This document shows positions 2,793 to 14,786 of a DNA stretch of 25,849 nt, one piece after another. Within the stretch, counting starts at the first letter, position 1; the number at the start of each line of letters is the position of its first letter. The DNA comes from a virus: the IMG/VR virus record IMGVR_UViG_3300043425_000765, positions 1-25,849 of that record, one strand, 5' to 3'. Both the position numbers and the translations under genes were made by a program. Below the pieces are notes generated by a model. It had not been told where the DNA came from, did no database searches, and worked only from the letters and a program-made list of their open reading frames with translations.

Positions 2793-5700
2793 TTAGTATG
2801 TTGCTGCCAAAAGTTTGTATTTAACCCCGTTTATTTCAACCTGTACATATCCAGTTGCTGTGGGTGCTGTCGTTACATATTCACCCAGTTTCCACGGGCG
2901 CGCTGTGCCATCTGTAGGCGCCGCTGTTATGACTTCAGCATTTTTTGTTACCCTGAAACTTTTACTTCCATCTGTAAGGTTCAAAAAATTTGAAGATGAC
3001 CCAGATGCTGTATTTGTAATCAGCATGTATATACCATTGACATTTGCCGTTGTATTCCATGTTGATTGTAAATTCAAAATGTCCCCACCATTATTCCCAG
3101 TAAATGTTGAACCTGTTACCGTAATTGGTGAAACGTTAGTTGTATTTGATATGGCTAAAACGGTCGTATCTAAATATAAACCTTTCAAACTTGATGACTG
3201 ATTATTTACAAAAAATACTGGGCCTTTAACCACTAAACTGGCCGCGTATGTTGAAACGTCCACCATGCCAATAGTGACTTCCTGCGAAAAATATGATCTT
3301 CCGGATACTTGTAAAATTTCCCCATTATTTGTGTTACTGGTTGTCCCTATAAGTAATTCCCCGGATGCGCTTATTGTAGCCCTGACTGTGCTATTTGTCG
3401 CAAATTGTAAAGGTTTGTCATAACCTGAACCGACGACGGCGGCGTATGATGATGAACCCGTGAAAATGGATCCGCCCGTTGAACTTTCGGCACCGTACAA
3501 CAGCCAGGCATTTGAACTGTAAATCTGTGCAGCGATGTCGGACGTTCCAGATCTGGCGATGTTATGCCCGATAGAAACGTTTGCAGTTACGTCAATCTTC
3601 CCAGTGACGCGGGTGTTCCCGTTGACGTCCAGCTGGTATCCGTTGTCGCCTGGGGATGCACCTATAAATACGCGCCCGTTATTGAAAATTCGCATCCGCT
3701 CCGTGTTATTGGTGCCGAAAATCATTGCGCTATTTGCGCGCTGGTATAAATAAGCATCAGCGACACTGGTGCCGCCGAGTAATCCAATATCGAAACCGAT
3801 AGTATTTGCAGTATTCCGATACAATGTTTGAGCAATCCCGTCCAGTATAAATTGCCCGTTTGTAAACATATTCCCTGCGACATTCAATTTATATGATCCC
3901 GGGCTGTTTGTCCCGATGCCGACGTTCCCAGATTGCGTAAATCGCACCCGTTCGGCAGGGCTTCCAGTGTTGGACGTGCTGATCACCAGATCATCGCTGT
4001 TCGCAGTTCTGCCGAAAAACATATCTGATGCAGCCACGCCCTGAAAATTGAATCCGGAAAAACGGGTGTTGTCACCTTTGCCGATGTAGTTCAGGCCCGT
4101 CGCCGCTGTCAATGCTGTGGCGCCTTGATTGCTTCGATAATTTCCATCGACGATCAAATTTGAATTGCTGTAAATTTCACCGATGACTTGCAGGGCATAT
4201 CCATAATCTGTGGACGATGTATTTATACCCACTCGTCTGTTGTTAAATACTCTAAAGGCTTCAGCGAATCCAGCGTTTCTGAAAATTGTTGCCCCGTCTG
4301 GGTTATCAACGTAAATGTTGTTGTCTGTAAACAGCATGATTTTCGCTGCATCTGTTCCGCCTGTGCTGTTTTTCCATTTTAATTGATTCCCATTTTCAAA
4401 TATTTGATTGCCGTTGACGTGCAGTTTTGAAACGGGGCTGGTGGTGCCGATTCCGATGTTCCCATAGGGATATGTAATATTTCGATAGCCTATATTATCC
4501 CCCGCAAAAATATCGACGCGCCTATTTGATCCCGTTGCGCTGGGGCGTAATTGTGTCAGAAAATACAAGGATCCCAAGGTGGCATCTGTTCCGGCCCTTA
4601 ATGCTAAATTGCTGTAATTAGCGTCATTTGGCGCGGTGTAATTGTTTACGTTCAGATCCCCGCCGTTGACGTCCAATTTCGCGCCTGGGAAATTTGTACC
4701 AATTCCAACATTTCCGCCCTCATTTATTCGCATTTTTATTGATGGCGATGTTGTACCAGTGACCAAACTGATCCCGTTTGTGTAACCTGTTCGCGGGTTT
4801 GCCTGTATTATTGTTTCGCCATAGTTATCAAACGGAAACGACCCCCCGACATTGCTGGCATAAATAAAACCTTGCGCGCCTCCGCCGTCGTTATTTAGGG
4901 CAAAATCACTGTCGTAGAAAGTTGTCCTGTTTGTTGATGCGGTCCGTAAAACGCCTAATATTCGTTCACTCCCAGGGACTGAAAGTTTTGCCGTTGGGGA
5001 TGTCGTACCAATCCCTACATTTCCGCTGGTCGTCGCAAAGTTTGCCCCGTTGACGGATCGCATGGTTCCGTTCACGTCGAATTGATACCCGGCGTCGGCG
5101 GTTGTATTTAATAATAATCGCCCCTCTGTGGATAGGCTCATTTTTTCAACATGCCCGCCAAAATCAAAATTGGCGTAACCAAATTTCAATGACCCGTTTA
5201 GGTCTTGAATGTATGACATGTATTGCGCCGTGTTTGAATTGATTAAAGAAATTGTCGGCCTTGCGTTTGCTGTTGATGTTCGTATTGCTATGCCCCTATA
5301 ATTGGAAACATTATCAACCATTAATTTATTCCCTGACGCCTGTGCGCTGCCAATAATAATATTTGTACCCTCTTCAAATATTTGTGAATTACCCAGCGTA
5401 TTCGCCGCTGTCCATTTCGGGATGTAGTTTGTAGTCCCGGATCCGTTTGTTTTTCCTGATCCTAAACTGTCGACAGCTTTCTGTACTCTGGCCCTGGTGG
5501 CGATGGCCGCCGTATCGACCAGCAATGACTGGCCGGATTTTGTCAGGCCGTATCCTGCAGCCCGGATGTATGGCGACAGCATGCTGGACGTATCTGAAAT
5601 GTTCACTTTCAGATTGATCCTATTTGACAGACCCAGGGTGTCAGCTTTTCGCAAATATGGCGTCAGCATGGCGGTGGTATCTGATTTTCGCAGATACGGG

Positions 5701-7217
5701 GCAATCATTGCCGCGGTGTCACTGATGTTTAATTTCAGATTGATCCGGTTCGACAGAAACAGGGTGTCTGATTCTTTCAGGTACGGCGACAGCATGGATG
5801 CAGTGTCACTGATATTCAATTTTGTGGCCAGTGCAGCGTTTACGTTTGATGTCCTGGCGTATGGGGACAGCATGGCTGTAGTGTCTGCCTTTCGAAGGTA
5901 TGGCGTCAACATTGACGACGTATCCGAAATGTTGACTTTCAACGCCAGGGCCGCGTTGACATTTGACGTCCTGGCATACGGTGATAACATGCTGGCGGTG
6001 TCTGAAATATTGACTTTCAAATTTATCCTGTTGGACAGGGTTGCTGTGTCTGCATCCCGCAAATACGGGGACAGCATGCTGGCAGTGTCCGAATATTTTA
6101 CCGTCGTCGCATTATTCGCCGGGGTGTATCCCAGGGCCTGGGCGATCGTTTTGTTTTTCCACAGGCGGGTCGTGCTGTCGTATGCTATGACCTGATTATT
6201 TATACTGTCAGTGATCAGGACGTTGTGCAGTTCCTCCAGTTCGAATCCGTTCTGTACGTTGACAAATATTTCCCCATTATTGGAATTTACCCTGGTGACG
6301 ACGCCGATGTAAACCATGTGGGCAGGGGCGACGGGTTTGTTCGCTGTTCCGTACAACAGATTTCCGTTTGTACCTAACCAGACCGGATCCCCGGCGGTGG
6401 CGCCTATGGTGTTCAGCCCCGAAAGGCGGCCCTGAATGATCACAAAACCCTGTCCATTTGTTGTTAGGTTCTGGTATAACAGGCCCAGCGTTTTGCTGGA
6501 TGTGGCGTCCGACGTGTTTGATGCTTTTGAAACCAGTACATTCGTGCCATCCGCCCCCGTTACATATACCGCCTGACCTTTGTTTATGGATTGTGTGGCT
6601 TTCACTGTTTCCCTGACGTCGGTGGTGTAATTGTCGATCCATGCGACATCATAATTTGTGGCGCTGTTTTTCGCCAGGATCTGGCCGGTGGTTCCGCCTA
6701 TGGGCAAACCAGCGACAGCCTTTGCATACGGGGCCAGCATGGCCGCTGTATCTGATATGTTCAGTTTTGTGTTTATTCGATTCGACAGGGTGACCGTATC
6801 CCCTTTCCTGAAATACGGGGACAACATGGCGGACGTATCCGATTTCCTCAAATATGGCAGCAACATGGACGCCGTATCTGAAATCCTGACCCGTAGGGCC
6901 ACCAGTGCAGAAACGGAATCATCGCCCTTTTGACGCCAGGCCCTGGTTGACATTATGACCGTATCGACCGCGGCGTTTGCCCCGATTTTTTCCCATTTCA
7001 CGCCAGTCCTGACATACAGGGAATCATTTAGGACCACCAGGGACCCAGGTAATTTGTTCTGGACCGTATCCGCGGGCATAACTATGGCAGCTTTCGCCTT
7101 CAGCCTGTTATATGTGAACCCGTACCCGTTGACCATAGTATATCTGGTCGTATCATTTTGACCGATGGCGGCCAGGGTGAACGACAAAACAGTAAACAGG
7201 GCGATCAGTTTTTTCAT
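2793..7217 (-). CDS. Large repeat-rich tail fibre protein with N-terminal signal peptide
   Basis: The 1474-residue protein is the likely receptor-binding fibre. Residues 1-20 form a signal peptide (MKKLIALFTVLSFTLAAIGQ), which is unusual for a fibre. A first set of xDTxxMLxPY repeats spans about 111-164. Residues about 210-335 form the KGQ-VYVTGADGTN domain seen in many fibres. A second, longer repeat block spans about 374-551, mixed with LSNRIN-K-NISDT units. From about 619 to 1306 there are nine or so GNVGIGTTSP...KL-V-NG units, typical of trimeric beta-structured fibres and surface proteins of Bacteroidota. The C-terminus ends in ATGYVQVEINGVKYKL. I see no S74 chaperone peptidase. It overlaps the LysM-like gene by 4 bases, and its position after the baseplate genes fits a fibre. 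Confidence 0.88.
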   Translation of the reverse strand: MKKLIALFTVLSFTLAAIGQNDTTRYTMVNGYGFTYNRLKAKAAIVMPADTVQNKLPGSLVVLNDSLYVRTGVKWEKIGANAAVDTVIMSTRAWRQKGDDSVSALVALRVRISDTASMLLPYLRKSDTSAMLSPYFRKGDTVTLSNRINTKLNISDTAAMLAPYAKAVAGLPIGGTTGQILAKNSATNYDVAWIDNYTTDVRETVKATQSINKGQAVYVTGADGTNVLVSKASNTSDATSSKTLGLLYQNLTTNGQGFVIIQGRLSGLNTIGATAGDPVWLGTNGNLLYGTANKPVAPAHMVYIGVVTRVNSNNGEIFVNVQNGFELEELHNVLITDSINNQVIAYDSTTRLWKNKTIAQALGYTPANNATTVKYSDTASMLSPYLRDADTATLSNRINLKVNISDTASMLSPYARTSNVNAALALKVNISDTSSMLTPYLRKADTTAMLSPYARTSNVNAALATKLNISDTASMLSPYLKESDTLFLSNRINLKLNISDTAAMIAPYLRKSDTTAMLTPYLRKADTLGLSNRINLKVNISDTSSMLSPYIRAAGYGLTKSGQSLLVDTAAIATRARVQKAVDSLGSGKTNGSGTTNYIPKWTAANTLGNSQIFEEGTNIIIGSAQASGNKLMVDNVSNYRGIAIRTSTANARPTISLINSNTAQYMSYIQDLNGSLKFGYANFDFGGHVEKMSLSTEGRLLLNTTADAGYQFDVNGTMRSVNGANFATTSGNVGIGTTSPTAKLSVPGSERILGVLRTASTNRTTFYDSDFALNNDGGGAQGFIYASNVGGSFPFDNYGETIIQANPRTGYTNGISLVTGTTSPSIKMRINEGGNVGIGTNFPGAKLDVNGGDLNVNNYTAPNDANYSNLALRAGTDATLGSLYFLTQLRPSATGSNRRVDIFAGDNIGYRNITYPYGNIGIGTTSPVSKLHVNGNQIFENGNQLKWKNSTGGTDAAKIMLFTDNNIYVDNPDGATIFRNAGFAEAFRVFNNRRVGINTSSTDYGYALQVIGEIYSNSNLIVDGNYRSNQGATALTAATGLNYIGKGDNTRFSGFNFQGVAASDMFFGRTANSDDLVISTSNTGSPAERVRFTQSGNVGIGTNSPGSYKLNVAGNMFTNGQFILDGIAQTLYRNTANTIGFDIGLLGGTSVADAYLYQRANSAMIFGTNNTERMRIFNNGRVFIGASPGDNGYQLDVNGNTRVTGKIDVTANVSIGHNIARSGTSDIAAQIYSSNAWLLYGAESSTGGSIFTGSSSYAAVVGSGYDKPLQFATNSTVRATISASGELLIGTTSNTNNGEILQVSGRSYFSQEVTIGMVDVSTYAASLVVKGPVFFVNNQSSSLKGLYLDTTVLAISNTTNVSPITVTGSTFTGNNGGDILNLQSTWNTTANVNGIYMLITNTASGSSSNFLNLTDGSKSFRVTKNAEVITAAPTDGTARPWKLGEYVTTAPTATGYVQVEINGVKYKLLAATY
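3300..5363 (-). repeat. GIGT-type repeat block of the tail fibre
   Basis: About nine spaced copies of a unit of the form N-(I/V)GIGT-x-SP-x(2-5)-(K/Y)-L-x-V-x-G are translated here, for example SGNVGIGTTSP, YGNIGIGTTSP and SGNVGIGTNSP. Some copies are degenerate, such as GRVFIGASPGD and RRVGINTSS. The units are spaced unevenly, with beta-rich unique sequence between them. This is protein-level repetition; the DNA copies have diverged. Confidence 0.8.
5564..6896 (-). repeat. SDTxxMLxPY repeats of the tail fibre shaft
   Basis: Eleven copies of a unit close to (N)ISDTASMLSPY are translated in two blocks, 6722-6896 and 5564-6098, separated by a unique domain. Several alternate with LSNRINLKVN or with TSNVNAALA-KVN linkers. 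Regular short units of this kind are expected to form an elongated trimeric shaft. Copy number could vary between related phages by recombination. Confidence 0.8.
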
Positions 7218-9962: not shown

Positions 9963-10577
9963 TTACTGAATCTGTAGTTCCAGGGGTTCGTCACTGATGG
10001 CATTGATGCTGAAATCCTGGCGGCTGATCCCGCCGGCGTTTTGGGGCATGCTGTAATCTGTCACGACGATATTGTAAATCCCCATTCCGTTCAGGAATCT
10101 GGAAACCACAGGAATGGAAACAGGGGCTTCCGCCATTCGCTGGACCGCCAGGGCTTCCGCTTCCGGATATTGCCCGTTTTGCCCCGTGATGATTCCGTTT
10201 ATCGAAACCTGAAAATCATCTTTTGAAATATATTCTTTGACCGTCCCGTTCCGCCCCTGGATCTGGGTTTTGACGATAATGGTGGGCCGGCTGACCGTGC
10301 AAAGGACAGTTTCAACGCGGACCTGATCAGTGGTGACCTGTCGGTTCTGGGTAAAATCGGTGTACGTCACTGACTGAAATGTCAGGTCGATGACCACAGG
10401 CGTCCCCAGGGCTGATTTGTACAGTTCCGGATCCCGGTCGTCTGCCTGGTTGATCTTCCCGTCGTATGGGTTGTCACGGACCGACAGCGGGCGGATCCCG
10501 GCCAGGTTGTACGTCCTGATCAGGGTGGTCAGCGGGACGGCGGCGATAACATACGGGCGATCTGGTTGAAATATCAT
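9963..10577 (-). CDS. DUF6046 phage tail protein
   Basis: The 204-residue protein resembles DUF6046, a family found in phages of Bacteroidota. Matching features are the central QGRNGTVKEYISKDDFQVSI segment, the PEAEALAVQRMAEAPVSIPV helix, the FLNGMGIYNIVVTDYSMPQ segment and the INAISDEPLELQI end. The position between tape measure and hub corresponds to the Mu gp43 (DNA circulation/tail) slot, so it probably joins tube or tape measure to the baseplate hub. The exact structural role is inferred. It overlaps the tape measure gene by 4 bases. Confidence 0.82.
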   Translation of the reverse strand: MIFQPDRPYVIAAVPLTTLIRTYNLAGIRPLSVRDNPYDGKINQADDRDPELYKSALGTPVVIDLTFQSVTYTDFTQNRQVTTDQVRVETVLCTVSRPTIIVKTQIQGRNGTVKEYISKDDFQVSINGIITGQNGQYPEAEALAVQRMAEAPVSIPVVSRFLNGMGIYNIVVTDYSMPQNAGGISRQDFSINAISDEPLELQIQ

Positions 10578-12229
10578 TGTCCTGCGATTAACTGTGAATC
10601 ATTTGTGGCGCTGACCAGGGCCTGAGCCACCATTTCCCGAACCTTTGCGGCCCCTTCCGTGACGTTTGTGGTTTGTATCTTGAAATCCTTAATCAGGGAT
10701 CCGATGGTCACGTTTATGGTCACCGCTTTAGCTGCCTGGGCGCCTTTCGTTTCAGCTTTGACCGGGGCGATGGCTGGCGTCGTTTTAGTCCCGCCGGCTG
10801 TGGGTCCAGCTACATTTTTCGGGGCGGCGACCGTCTTTTTTGCCTGGTCAGACGCAAAATCTTTCATCCCTTCATCATACCCGGTTTTGAATCCATCCGC
10901 CAGCTTTCGGCCAGCGTTGACCATGACGTCAGCGGACTGTTTGAAACCTTCGATGACCATGGCGCCGTCCAGGGTGAAAACCCCTTTGATGACCTTCCAG
11001 ACGCCTTCAAACGCATCGACTACCAGGGCGGCCCAGGCTTTGATCACGCCCCAGACGCCCCACAGGACCGCGCGGAACGTCCCGAATTGATTGTAAGCAT
11101 ATACCACGCCGGCGGTCAATGCCCCCAGGGCGACAATGACGATGCCGATGGGGTTTGCGGTCATGGCCGCGTTCAGTGCATACTGGGCCGCTGCCATCAG
11201 TTTCGTGAATATGCTGGCCGTTCCATACGCTGTTCCCAGGGTGTACATGGCCGCGATCTGGACGTATGTCACAGCTGTCTGGATTCCCTGGATGGCGACG
11301 CCTGCCAGCAATGACGCCCGATAAATGGCATAGGCTCCAGCCACCACGCCCAGGCCGATGGCCACGGCTTTGATGGCGTCAGCATTTCGGACCGTCCAGT
11401 CCCAGGCTGATCGCATGACATCAATAAACGATGAAACCCCTGACAATATCGCCGCAAACGCCGGGGTCAGATCACGCCCGATTTTTTCCTGTAGCATGAA
11501 AATTTGATTCTGTGAACGGGCGAATTCAGCGTTCAGGCTGGTCATGGCCGCGGGCAGCCCGCCGCTGACCTCTGTTCGCAGCTGGTTGGCAAATTTGGGC
11601 AGAAAATCGGTTGCGATCAGTTCCCCCTTTACCAGCATGTCATCCAGTTTTTGTGTGGTCACTCCCATGGCGCGGGCAGCTACCTGAAAGGCTCCAGGCA
11701 TACGTTCACCCAGCTGGCCGCGTAGTTCCTCCGCGGAAACTTTTCCTTTGCTGATCATTTGGGATACAGCCATTAAAGCCCCCTCTGTCTGTTCAGCTGA
11801 CAGGCCGAAAACCGCTGACGCTTCGCTCATGCTCTCAAATATCGTCCGAACCGACTGACCCTCCAGTTCTGTTCCCTTTGCAGCGGCTCCGATAGTTTTG
11901 TACCCCTGGGCCGCGCTCTGCAGATTCAGGCCCAGTTTGTTCGAAAATTCAGTCAAATATTCAAATGTTTCCTGGCCTTGACCGCCGGAAATCATATCCA
12001 GTCCGATTTTCAATGATCCTACCTCGCGCGTCACATCAAATACGCTTTTGCCAAAGGCAATAATTCCCGCCGTTCCAAAGGCGATGCCGATGGCGCTGCC
12101 CAGGTTGCTGGCTGTTGTTTGCGCGCTTCGCATCTTTGTTTCAAACTTGCTCACTTCCTTATCAGCGACCTGGATTTTCCCGGTCAATAGATCTTTCAGC
12201 GTCAGCGTATAGACAACAGTTTCCGACAT
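10574..12229 (-). CDS. Tape measure protein
   Basis: The 551-residue protein sets tail length. It shows the lambda-like tape measure domain: VSQMISKGKVSAEELRGQLG and ERMPGAFQVAARAMGVTTQK (about residues 155-194), followed by KGELIATDFLPKFANQL. A hydrophobic central region (about 285-380) contains several potential membrane-spanning helices, as expected for a protein that may enter the host membrane. A short linker-rich C-terminal part follows (AAPKNVAGPTAGG). By the usual 0.15 nm per residue, a length of about 80 nm for the tail is plausible. It starts one base after the stop of the frameshifted chaperone frame. That order (tube, chaperone, tape measure) is conserved in many phages. Confidence 0.93.
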   Translation of the reverse strand: MSETVVYTLTLKDLLTGKIQVADKEVSKFETKMRSAQTTASNLGSAIGIAFGTAGIIAFGKSVFDVTREVGSLKIGLDMISGGQGQETFEYLTEFSNKLGLNLQSAAQGYKTIGAAAKGTELEGQSVRTIFESMSEASAVFGLSAEQTEGALMAVSQMISKGKVSAEELRGQLGERMPGAFQVAARAMGVTTQKLDDMLVKGELIATDFLPKFANQLRTEVSGGLPAAMTSLNAEFARSQNQIFMLQEKIGRDLTPAFAAILSGVSSFIDVMRSAWDWTVRNADAIKAVAIGLGVVAGAYAIYRASLLAGVAIQGIQTAVTYVQIAAMYTLGTAYGTASIFTKLMAAAQYALNAAMTANPIGIVIVALGALTAGVVYAYNQFGTFRAVLWGVWGVIKAWAALVVDAFEGVWKVIKGVFTLDGAMVIEGFKQSADVMVNAGRKLADGFKTGYDEGMKDFASDQAKKTVAAPKNVAGPTAGGTKTTPAIAPVKAETKGAQAAKAVTINVTIGSLIKDFKIQTTNVTEGAAKVREMVAQALVSATNDSQLIAGQ

Positions 12230-12230
12230 G

Positions 12231-12757
12231 TCAGTTCCATTTTATTTGATGCACCAGGCCCAGGTAATATTTCACCCGGCCCCATAATTTCCAGAAATCA
12301 TCATCCGTCAGTTCATCCGGGTCAATACGCAAACAGCAGTGGATCAACGCGGAAATCCGGGTTTCATCACTGCTGTCATCATCGACCTGGTAACGGTCGA
12401 TTATTTTTTTTTATCGCCATGGTTCACCGCAAATGAAATCATTTCACTGACAGCGTAAACCGCGCCCATGTAATATGGGTCATCTTCTGACCGTTCTGAT
12501 GTTATCCGCGGATCGCTGTAATCTTTCAGGATGATGGCGTCCAGGGCCTGGGAACAGGCGGAATAGAATCCCATCGCGTATTTATCCATCACCGCCAATT
12601 TGACGGCCCGGCTGGGTTCCTTGATGAATCCCACTACAGGGTCATCGTTTTGATTGACGGAAAAAATCAGCGGGTGAACTTTTATTTTCAATTCATCCGA
12701 AAGGGCTTGCGCCCTGGCTTCCGCCTCCAGTTTGGCGGCGTTCAATCGTGTGTCCAT
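12231..12757 (-). CDS. Frameshifted tail assembly chaperone (long form, -1 shift)
   Basis: The zero-frame protein ends in DKKK-stop on a run of nine A. If ribosomes slip back one base on this run, the frame continues for 57 codons: IIDRYQVDDDSSDETRISAL, then IHCCLRIDPDELTDDDFWKL, then WGRVKYYLGLVHQIKWN, and stops at 12231-12233. The stop lies one base before the tape measure ATG. The extension is acidic first and Trp-rich at the end, with no ATG of its own in frame before it. This is the lambda G/GT arrangement, in which a small fraction of long protein binds the tape measure during tail assembly. The frame, its length and its exact fit into the gap are seen; slippage itself is inferred. The product would be 175 residues. 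Confidence 0.82.
12401..12757 (-). CDS. Tail assembly chaperone, short form
   Basis: The 118-residue protein takes the position of lambda gpG and Mu gp41 between tube and tape measure. It is largely helical: a charged N-terminal helix (NAAKLEAEARAQALSDELK), a hydrophobic core region with the GFIKEPSRAVKLAVMDKY motif (about residues 43-60), and a C-terminal helical part (YYMGAVYAVSEMISFAV). It ends in DKKK from a nine-A run that serves as the slippage site for the long form. It starts 66 bases after the tube gene, past a strong hairpin. The short and long forms together should chaperone the tape measure while the tube polymerises. Confidence 0.85.
   Translation of the reverse strand: MDTRLNAAKLEAEARAQALSDELKIKVHPLIFSVNQNDDPVVGFIKEPSRAVKLAVMDKYAMGFYSACSQALDAIILKDYSDPRITSERSEDDPYYMGAVYAVSEMISFAVNHGDKKK
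12404..12412 (-). promoter_or_regulatory. Slippery run of nine A for -1 frameshifting
   Basis: On the minus strand the codons read GAT AAA AAA AAA TAA. Nine A in the frame AAA-AAA-AAA directly before the stop allow both tRNA-Lys to re-pair after a one-base backward slip (A AAA AAA heptamer). The stop then becomes ATA ATC, opening the 57-codon extension. A slip of two bases or a +1 shift would meet a stop after eight codons. Confidence 0.82.
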
Positions 12758-12823: not shown

Positions 12824-13246
12824 TCAAAGGACGTGCGTGATGCCGGCGATGATCAGCGGAATTTTGATCAGGATTTTCGAATCCCCCTGTTTTGCAGAAA
12901 AAGGATCTTCCATGAATTCGCATGCTTCCAGGTTATCCTGGCGGAACGTCAGACTGGAATCACCGAACAGGACCTGGATGGGGAACGGCTTGATCAACAG
13001 CGGATCCTTTGAAGGGGCCGCCTGAATGATCCGGCGCCATTCGTCCAGAAACAGCGTTATATCCGCCTCATATTCAATCATCCCATAACCACGGGAAACG
13101 GGTTCGTTTCCGGCGCCATAGTTGTTTTCTTTGTTTTGCTTCCGGGTGTAATTGATTTCCGTGATTCCGACGACCGGAACGCCGAACAGATTGAACTTAA
13201 TGTTCGACCAGGAATAATTCACGCCGTTTATCAGCGGTGTAGCCAT
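12824..13246 (-). CDS. Tail tube protein
   Basis: The 140-residue protein lies directly after the sheath gene and is of tube size. It is beta-rich: it starts MATPLINGVNYSWSNIKFNL, continues with a segment that ends in FGVPVVGITEINYTRKQNKE, and then has the NNYGAGNEPVSRGYG loop and the YEADITLFLDEWRRIIQAAP region. The C-terminal strand pair runs about 105-140. These features match tube proteins of contractile phages of Bacteroidota. It should polymerise inside the sheath as hexamer rings. A strong RNA hairpin follows the stop and may support high expression. Confidence 0.87.
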   Translation of the reverse strand: MATPLINGVNYSWSNIKFNLFGVPVVGITEINYTRKQNKENNYGAGNEPVSRGYGMIEYEADITLFLDEWRRIIQAAPSKDPLLIKPFPIQVLFGDSSLTFRQDNLEACEFMEDPFSAKQGDSKILIKIPLIIAGITHVL

Positions 13247-13256
13247 TTTTCAAATT

Positions 13257-14786
13257 TTATACGGTGACGTTGTAACCGATATTTACCACAATGTTTCGAC
13301 CTGTCGCGATCTGTACCAGGGTGACGTTGATCGTCAGGATTCCCGTTGACAGAACGTTTTGCTGGGTGTTCACAGATACGGCGAAACCAGACAGTTCCCC
13401 ATTTCGGACCATTTCGAACAGGGGGCCTTCAGCCAGTCCCTGGAAATATGCCACAGCTTCATCCGACAGCGTACCGTCAGCGTTTAGCGTGATGGGGGAA
13501 TTCAGGGCAGGCAGAACCGAAATGTAAATGACGCGGGTGGCCTTTTGCATTGTCCTGTTATCCGTGATATAGGCGTAATCCGAATTCAGGGCGATGCTGG
13601 TGGGGTTTTCGTTAAAATACGACCCCGCAATACCCACGAATTTCCGCAGGAACAGATACCGACGATCCTGCAGGACTGACAAAAGGCTGTCAGTTACGCT
13701 GGAATGGGAAAACAGGACGCCGTTTGCAAATGCCAGGACATCACATTCGGTTCCGTTGCTGATGTTGAACTGGGCCACCCAGGCAATGGAATGGGATACC
13801 TTCGCCCGTGCGACCGCTCCCAGGGCAGCGCCCAGGGTGGTCACCGACTTTCCGGTGGAATAGAACAGGCTCGCGCCGGTGGCGCCTCCATCCTGGGAAA
13901 TTACCGCTGTGCAATAATTCGCCGTCAGGGTGGACAGATCTGTCAGGGTGGAAACGTCAGCTGTGCCGCTGATGTCCGCGCCGTAAAGGGCTATGATCTC
14001 TTTATGGGCGGTGACGTTGGCCGCGCAAACATTGTGAATGGCGGTGATGTCCGCGCTTGCAAATGCCGCGCTGTCCTTGAAAATACCGATCTGCCTGATC
14101 TTGCCGGTGGCAAACGATTGGACAGTGGTGATTTCCGTAAACGTGTACGGCGAAGGGACCGCAAAAATCCCGACGAACAGGTTCCCCTGGGGTTGCAGGC
14201 GGAAATATTCGCTGATATGGTAGTGCCACACAGCATATTTGGACGCGACGCCCCCAGTGAACTGGGTGATCGTTCCTGCCAGGGTTGCCCCAGCGCTGTA
14301 TGTTGCGGTCAGCGGGGACCCAGTATTTAGAAAAATACCCATCCCCGCGCGGGCCGTGATTGTCACGGTGGCGGAATTCACGCTGGCGGTGTATCCGTGT
14401 GTATTTGTTCCTGAATTGATGACAGCGGCGATGCTGGTGGCAACATTTGCCACCGTGCTGTCCGCTGAAACCTTTGTGTAAACGCCCAGGGATACCGTGC
14501 GACCCAGATATTCAGCCACTTTGAGTTCAACGGTGTCCCCGTTGGCCCCGGCGGCTGTGACCAGGTATGACGCGGCGGCCTTTGTTTCATCGGAAAAGGT
14601 TCCGACGATGCCGGCGGCCTCTGCATCTGCCAGGCTGAAAAACTGTTTGATCCGGTTCGATACGCTGAATCCAGACGGAAGGTTCCCGCTGGTGTAGAAT
14701 ATCAGGCCCGAAATATGATCTTCACCGGGCAGCGGACGGCCCAGGCCGCCCTGTCCCAGATTGAATGTTATGTTATTTAATGCCAT
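13257..14786 (-). CDS. Contractile tail sheath protein (DUF2586-type)
   Basis: The 509-residue protein is the likely sheath. Its N-terminus (INTITFNL-like: MALNNITFNLGQGGLGRPLP) resembles DUF2586 sheath proteins of Bacteroidota phages. A middle insertion domain (about residues 90-180, Thr/Ala-rich and beta-like) is followed by the core with YHISEYFRLQPQGNLFVGIF (about 188-207). The C-terminal part contains the YAYITDNRTMQKATRVIYIS region (about 406-425) and EAVAYFQGLAEGPLFEMV (about 443-460), near the region that joins subunits. The order sheath-tube-chaperone-tape measure is standard for myophages and supports the call. It starts 13 bases past the small gene upstream. Confidence 0.9.
   Translation of the reverse strand: MALNNITFNLGQGGLGRPLPGEDHISGLIFYTSGNLPSGFSVSNRIKQFFSLADAEAAGIVGTFSDETKAAASYLVTAAGANGDTVELKVAEYLGRTVSLGVYTKVSADSTVANVATSIAAVINSGTNTHGYTASVNSATVTITARAGMGIFLNTGSPLTATYSAGATLAGTITQFTGGVASKYAVWHYHISEYFRLQPQGNLFVGIFAVPSPYTFTEITTVQSFATGKIRQIGIFKDSAAFASADITAIHNVCAANVTAHKEIIALYGADISGTADVSTLTDLSTLTANYCTAVISQDGGATGASLFYSTGKSVTTLGAALGAVARAKVSHSIAWVAQFNISNGTECDVLAFANGVLFSHSSVTDSLLSVLQDRRYLFLRKFVGIAGSYFNENPTSIALNSDYAYITDNRTMQKATRVIYISVLPALNSPITLNADGTLSDEAVAYFQGLAEGPLFEMVRNGELSGFAVSVNTQQNVLSTGILTINVTLVQIATGRNIVVNIGYNVTV

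Follow-up and report, generated by a model that had tools for sequence, protein, structure and literature searches.

Tailed phages typically make two forms of a tail-assembly chaperone by a -1 slip. In phage lambda, these are gpG, a short chaperone, and gpGT, a minority -1 fusion, encoded between the tail tube and tape measure genes (PMC5009743). Here, we consider whether an open reading frame (ORF) of 118 codons, which ends in nine adenines and a stop codon, forms such a pair with the open -1 frame that follows it and, if so, whether the slip would be made by the ribosome or by RNA polymerase. The ORF is found in a viral contig from IMG/VR (25,849 bases), the whole of which was examined and is referred to below as the window.

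Gene order and the junction

The genes for a Mu-type portal (Pfam Portal_Mu, E 2.9e-52), a Clp-type head protease, a DUF2586 sheath, the tail tube and the tape measure are all located on the minus strand, and the 118-codon ORF sits between the tail tube and tape measure genes (Table 1). The same strand also encodes, at window positions 2793-7217, a protein of 1474 residues that contains many near-repeats (DTASMLSPYLRKSD... and GNVGIGTTSP...) and is probably a tail fibre.

Table 1. Features of the tail-gene region, in window coordinates.
Feature	Position	Strand	Basis
Tail sheath	13257..14786	-	Pfam DUF2586, E 5.4e-35; PHROG 907 tail sheath, E 5.4e-34
Tail tube protein	12824..13246	-	PHROG 4579 tail protein, E 5.5e-19; position after the sheath
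Putative tail assembly chaperone, G-like N-terminal frame (118 aa, ATG start)	12401..12757	-	ORF; TAA stop at 12401-12403
Putative A9 slip site, AAA AAA AAA followed by TAA	12404..12412	-	Sequence; kept in homologues
T-like -1 frame extension	12231..12404	-	57 codons (12404..12234) and TGA (12233..12231)
SL1, predicted hairpin ATCGACC/GGTCGAT	12381..12401	-	Fold; comparison with synonymous recodings
SL2, predicted hairpin with 10-bp outer stem ACAGCAGTG/CACTGCTGT and an inner stem	12332..12377	-	Synonymous recodings; covariation
Tape measure protein	10574..12229	-	Pfam TMP_3, E 4.9e-28; PHROG tape measure, E 2.5e-53

The 3' end of the ORF reads ...GGC GAT AAA AAA AAA TAA, and the -1 frame reads ATA ATC GAC ... 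AAC TGA, with a single base (12230) between its stop codon and the ATG of the tape measure gene at 12229. This layout had been described in a first-pass annotation of the contig and is exact to the base. The +1 (i.e., -2) frame closes after 7 codons. Of possible start codons, the -1 extension holds TTG (codons 20 and 25) and GTG (codons 44 and 51) but no ATG. In a first-order Markov model, a -1 frame that starts at a given point stays open for 57 codons by chance with a probability of about 0.12, and the case therefore rests on the comparison of homologues.

Conservation of the -1 extension

Homologues were gathered by scans of viral contigs and genomes. The first tabulation comprised 72 distinct junctions; the tree comprises 75, with later additions included and two Winoviridae phages left out. 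At each of the 72 junctions, a homologous -1 extension stays open for 53-73 codons; the other two frames both reach a stop within the first 50 codons. The lysine run KKK was invariant in the first alignment of 10 sequences, and dN/dS of the extension is 0.089, 0.088 and 0.042 in three groups, i.e., close to that of the N-terminal part, which indicates that the extension is under purifying selection.

The first-pass annotation had read the two frames as a G/GT pair joined by a -1 shift and had pointed to related phages as a check, and we searched these for an interrupted -1 frame, a lost A-run and a separate, ATG-started gene for the extension. An interrupted frame was found at none of the 72 junctions, and both the A-run (see below) and the -1 frame are kept, the latter with the dN/dS of 0.04-0.09 given above. 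The odd case is L154 (reverse strand, locus from G600), where the N- and C-terminal parts form one continuous ORF with A7C, not A9C. This single ORF may reflect either a genuine fusion or an error in calling the homopolymer; the presence of both parts in a single frame supports the view that they constitute one protein.

A more distant sister group was retrieved through the extension and includes the Flavobacterium phages FPSV and lotta/pippi as well as the Winogradskyella phage Peternella. The -1 layout is shared by nearly every readable member of this group, where the slip site is mostly A_AAA_AAG, with a single codon between it and the stop, and less often A7G, A8-A10, G_GGA_AAG or G_GAA_AAG; at a few sites (e.g., in L158, L184, L200 and L207) no obvious heptamer was seen. 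In L152, L175, L183 and L187 of this group, G_GAA_AAG, an imperfect slippery heptamer, replaces the A-run, and a -1 extension still follows. Genome searches by order, class and family yielded few prophages.

The expectation that conventional annotation would leave the stretch non-coding is borne out by published phages: the extension is unannotated in the FPSV phages and in Peternella, part of it appears in lotta8-1 as a separate hypothetical ORF (gp39), and the frames are joined in none of the phage records examined. In published Flavobacterium and Winogradskyella phages the extension is found at 6037-6165 (L017), 6056-6240 (L016) and 2514-2753 (L213), and records with a split or gapped extension could be corrected. 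The protein family is undescribed in the literature searched, which was one open-access collection.

Two readings of the junction other than a fusion may be weighed on these data. Re-initiation or coupling where the first gene ends might allow the extension to be translated as a small gene of its own, and in L006, L008, L021 and L022 the stop codon overlaps an ATG of the -1 frame (AAAAATGA). However, ATG as the first -1 codon is confined to this nearest subclade; the window has ATA at the junction, most relatives have ATA, CTA, TTA, GTA or CTG, such that there is no conserved start codon, and L154 carries both parts as one ORF, all of which makes a separate gene very improbable. Homopolymers are also prone to sequencing and assembly errors, and L154, in which two A's differ, does read through. 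Nevertheless, an identical A9 is found in 69 of the 75 distinct homologues from many samples, genome assemblies included, the -1 layout is seen also in isolated phages and the extension appears to be under purifying selection; an error or a decayed gene is thus a negligible prospect. Sequencing error and separate initiation can be all but dismissed, and the -1 junction, together with the fusion, is very likely genuine. The stop/ATG overlap in the four members of the nearest subclade could, in these phages, permit an extra, separate translation of the extension.

Predicted protein products

None of the Pfam, PHROGs or NCBIfam families recognises the 118-residue protein, and no credible match came from a profile search of the PDB sequences. 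The AlphaFold model of this N-terminal part (pLDDT 79.4), compared with the PDB, retrieved 3FGX at rank 1 (E 0.027, TM 0.54-0.64) and 2OB9 at rank 3 (E 0.77). These statistics are weak, but the two entries, i.e., Rbstp2171 and HK97 gp13, are the best fold matches that are known chaperones, and both are phage tail assembly chaperones (PMC9603447). The model of the 118-residue product thus weakly resembles known tail-assembly chaperones, and a chaperone function is putative. The extension is modelled as a compact helical domain (pLDDT 92.5), for which a fold search gave no significant match; the hit at rank 2 is the homologous ORF of phage lotta8-1. Because of the chaperone-like fold and the gene position between tube and tape measure, the G/GT reading is the best one, and it gains further support from the 72 homologous junctions.

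Length and register of the A-run

Apart from the A9, no run of A or T in the 25.8-kb window reaches 9. Among the 75 close homologues, 74 have an A-run of at least 9, with A9 in 69 and A10 in 5, and lengths of 7 or 8 were never seen. The lone exception within the A9 clade, L115, has the classical A_AAA_AAG. The length is maintained despite changes in the codon register of the run, which is in phase 0 in 58 rows; on the tree, the phase-0 label changes 6 times, of which at least 4 changes are forced by well-supported branches.

Elsewhere in the clade long runs are scarce. Its other 460 genes contain 1 run of at least 9 A, compared to about 25 expected from synonymous shuffles, and runs of 8 A are about halved in every register, whereas runs of 7 are not depleted. 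In-frame A7 is not avoided in these genes and A_AAA_AAG is commoner than expected, which suggests that heptamers alone are harmless. The lone run outside the chaperone in the predicted genes of the clade is an A13 in L062 (about 2648-2660); it is located shortly before the likely start of the sheath, in an N-terminal extension that is itself doubtful. Avoidance by run length, where 9 or more are avoided and 7 are not, is what slippage of the polymerase predicts, but it could come from replication slippage instead.

The A9 qualifies as a slip site at two levels. It contains A_AAA_AAA, an in-frame heptamer of the form X_XXY_YYZ as used for -1 ribosomal shifts, and it has the length of a transcriptional slippage site, i.e., a homopolymer of A or T with 9 or more residues. 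A ribosomal heptamer requires just A7 or A6G.

RNA structure downstream of the A-run

In 50-nt segments that start 20 nt after the stop codon, the mean folding z-score is -2.26 for 45 dissimilar representatives, compared to about -0.2 elsewhere. The downstream RNA of the window folds at -33.3 kcal/mol (z -5.8 relative to dinucleotide shuffles), and for the first 34 codons of its -1 frame the minimum free energy is -40.5, compared to -22.5 for synonymous recodings, of which 0/200 were as good.

Two hairpins are predicted in this RNA (Table 1). SL1 starts 2 nt 3' of the A9, and its GACC core follows after 5 nt; it occurs only in the nearest subclade of the window, where it exceeds synonymous recodings (fraction as good 0.005-0.08; 0.064 in the window). 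SL2 starts 26 nt 3' of the A9 and differs more strongly from its recodings (z -3.7, 0.2% as good). In a subset of 23 sequences that share one pairing register, and for a helix that we named ourselves, 27 cells of SL2 are changed on both sides, compared to 11.5 +/- 2.9 in shuffles, with 0/500 as high and with far lower counts in slid controls; 232 of 276 cells are paired, compared to 146.6 +/- 8.6 in the synonymous null. RNAalifold gave no consensus structure for an alignment of 28 sequences, probably owing to members whose pairing is shifted by one column. Taken together, comparisons of this kind indicate that SL1 and SL2 are selected beyond the protein sequence, and a role as stimulators of the shift is proposed.

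The distribution of structure is uneven. In about 40% of the A9-clade representatives the downstream structure is no better than expected, yet the A9 is kept. Members of the sister group also have long hairpins, and in several of them the base of the stem is found 2-9 nt after the stop. A6G sites and long-A sites do not differ significantly in structure (p = 0.18). No pseudoknot was consistently indicated when pairing of spacer, loop and flank was examined (mean z -0.5 to -0.7), although a few members of the subclade of the window have strong values.

Ribosomal or transcriptional slippage

We favour, with a probability of roughly 0.65, a model where the chaperone fusion of this phage is made by ribosomal -1 frameshifting, such that the two frames would encode one tail-assembly chaperone pair. 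Most ribosomes would stop at the TAA after the A9 to yield the 118-residue G-like protein, while a minority would pass into the -1 frame to yield a 175-residue GT-like fusion (...DKKK-IIDRY...KWN). With the stop codon in the A site, the tRNA-Lys pairs would slip back by one base in the adenines of A_AAA_AAA, and SL1 and SL2 just downstream may stimulate this slippage. By analogy with lambda, the short form may coat the tape measure and the added domain may recruit tail-tube subunits. We infer the occurrence of the shift in cells, its efficiency, its level and the division of labour between the products. The ribosomal model is supported by the classical A_AAA_AAG at the same position in the sister group and in L115. 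It is also supported by the selected downstream structure, which fits a ribosomal event because the RNA 3' of the site is still unmade while the polymerase is on the A-run. Against it count an A-run that is longer than a heptamer needs and fixed in length, the clade members that keep the A9 without such structure, the apparent harmlessness of heptamers in the other genes, and the 26-nt distance of SL2, the strongest hairpin, with the nearby SL1 found only in the nearest subclade. The usual spacing between a slip site and its stimulator is 5-9 nt, which SL2 exceeds.

The first-pass annotation had proposed a programmed -1 frameshift. The frame of the shift is supported by the homologues, but the ribosomal level is not the only option, and slippage by the polymerase had not been considered. 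In the latter case, the polymerase would add an A on the A9 and the resulting A10 mRNA would encode the fusion, possibly alongside ribosomal slippage. The constancy of a run of at least 9 across codon registers, the near absence of such runs from other genes and the lack of downstream structure in many members all fit this mechanism, as do published data: runs of 9 A or T suffice for efficient slippage in bacteria, the hybrid of RNA and DNA spans 9-10 bp (PMC5009743) and the polymerase slips on A11 at about 20% (PMC4256274). The A6G of the sister group and of L115 is too short for it, however, the avoidance of long runs has the alternative source in replication named above, and the literature on phage chaperones describes ribosomal shifts (PMC5009743). 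In addition, it is hard to see what the selected hairpins would do for a polymerase that has yet to make them, and we consider transcriptional slippage rather unlikely. A purely transcriptional model was the leading candidate after the run-length results and was demoted when the downstream hairpins were found. More broadly, the A9 may, tentatively, act as a slip site at both levels or at the transcriptional level only, having replaced, or having been replaced by, the ribosomal A_AAA_AAG of the sister group. Finally, the hairpins could serve mRNA stability, polarity or translation of the tape measure gene, with the shift dependent on the A-run alone. The distance of SL2 and its absence from many A9 members fit such a role; the lower stems that begin close to the slip site in many sister-group members, and the position of SL1 in the subclade of the window, speak against it, and we regard it as unlikely. 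The ribosomal model with stimulatory hairpins thus remains the preferred one.

Relation to known systems

The locus resembles that of lambda gpG/gpGT in gene position and in a -1 shift at the end of the first frame, but differs in that the proteins lack similarity to known families, the A9 directly precedes the stop and the downstream hairpins appear selected. With the gp41 region of Mu it shares the order sheath, tube, chaperone and tape measure as well as a Mu-type portal. The first-pass annotation had suggested that a -1 shift here would be a switch within a Mu-like gene order. The -2 shift in the chaperone region of Mu is stated in the literature (PMC5009743, PMC2628397), in contrast to the -1 shift found here, but the switch is not supported as a lineage event: -1 is general across these Bacteroidota phages, Mu gp41 and the chaperone have no detectable sequence similarity (hhalign probability 0.6%) and the two tape measures are only weakly alike (21% over 135 aa). 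On this comparison, the -2 and -1 shifts represent a difference between similar gene orders and no demonstrated lineage event.

In Winoviridae (the Flavobacterium phages FPSV and lotta/pippi and the Winogradskyella phage Peternella), a homologous -1 extension is found at the same position, but one codon separates the slip site, A_AAA_AAG, from the stop, and FPSV has little downstream structure. Thermus dnaX, Shigella spa13/mxiE and Citrobacter tssM1 are similar in having homopolymers of about 9 or more A/T and two product lengths (PMC5009743, PMC4256274); unlike these bacterial slippage sites, the present one is followed by hairpins that appear selected and has relatives that use a ribosomal heptamer.

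From this comparison, a frameshifted chaperone is ordinary in kind, its combined signal is unusual, and what is new is the protein family, the fixed run of nine adenines and the conserved hairpin behind the run. Should the A9 be a site of polymerase slippage, the level of recoding would have changed within one gene family at the same junction, and this would be, to our knowledge, the first tail chaperone made in this manner. A large, unannotated family of Bacteroidota phages joins the G/GT scheme, with a C-terminal domain, dropped or split by gene callers, that is now supplied, and its single junction, which carries either A9 or A6G and has hairpins in some members only, constitutes a natural set for separating ribosomal from RNA-polymerase slippage.
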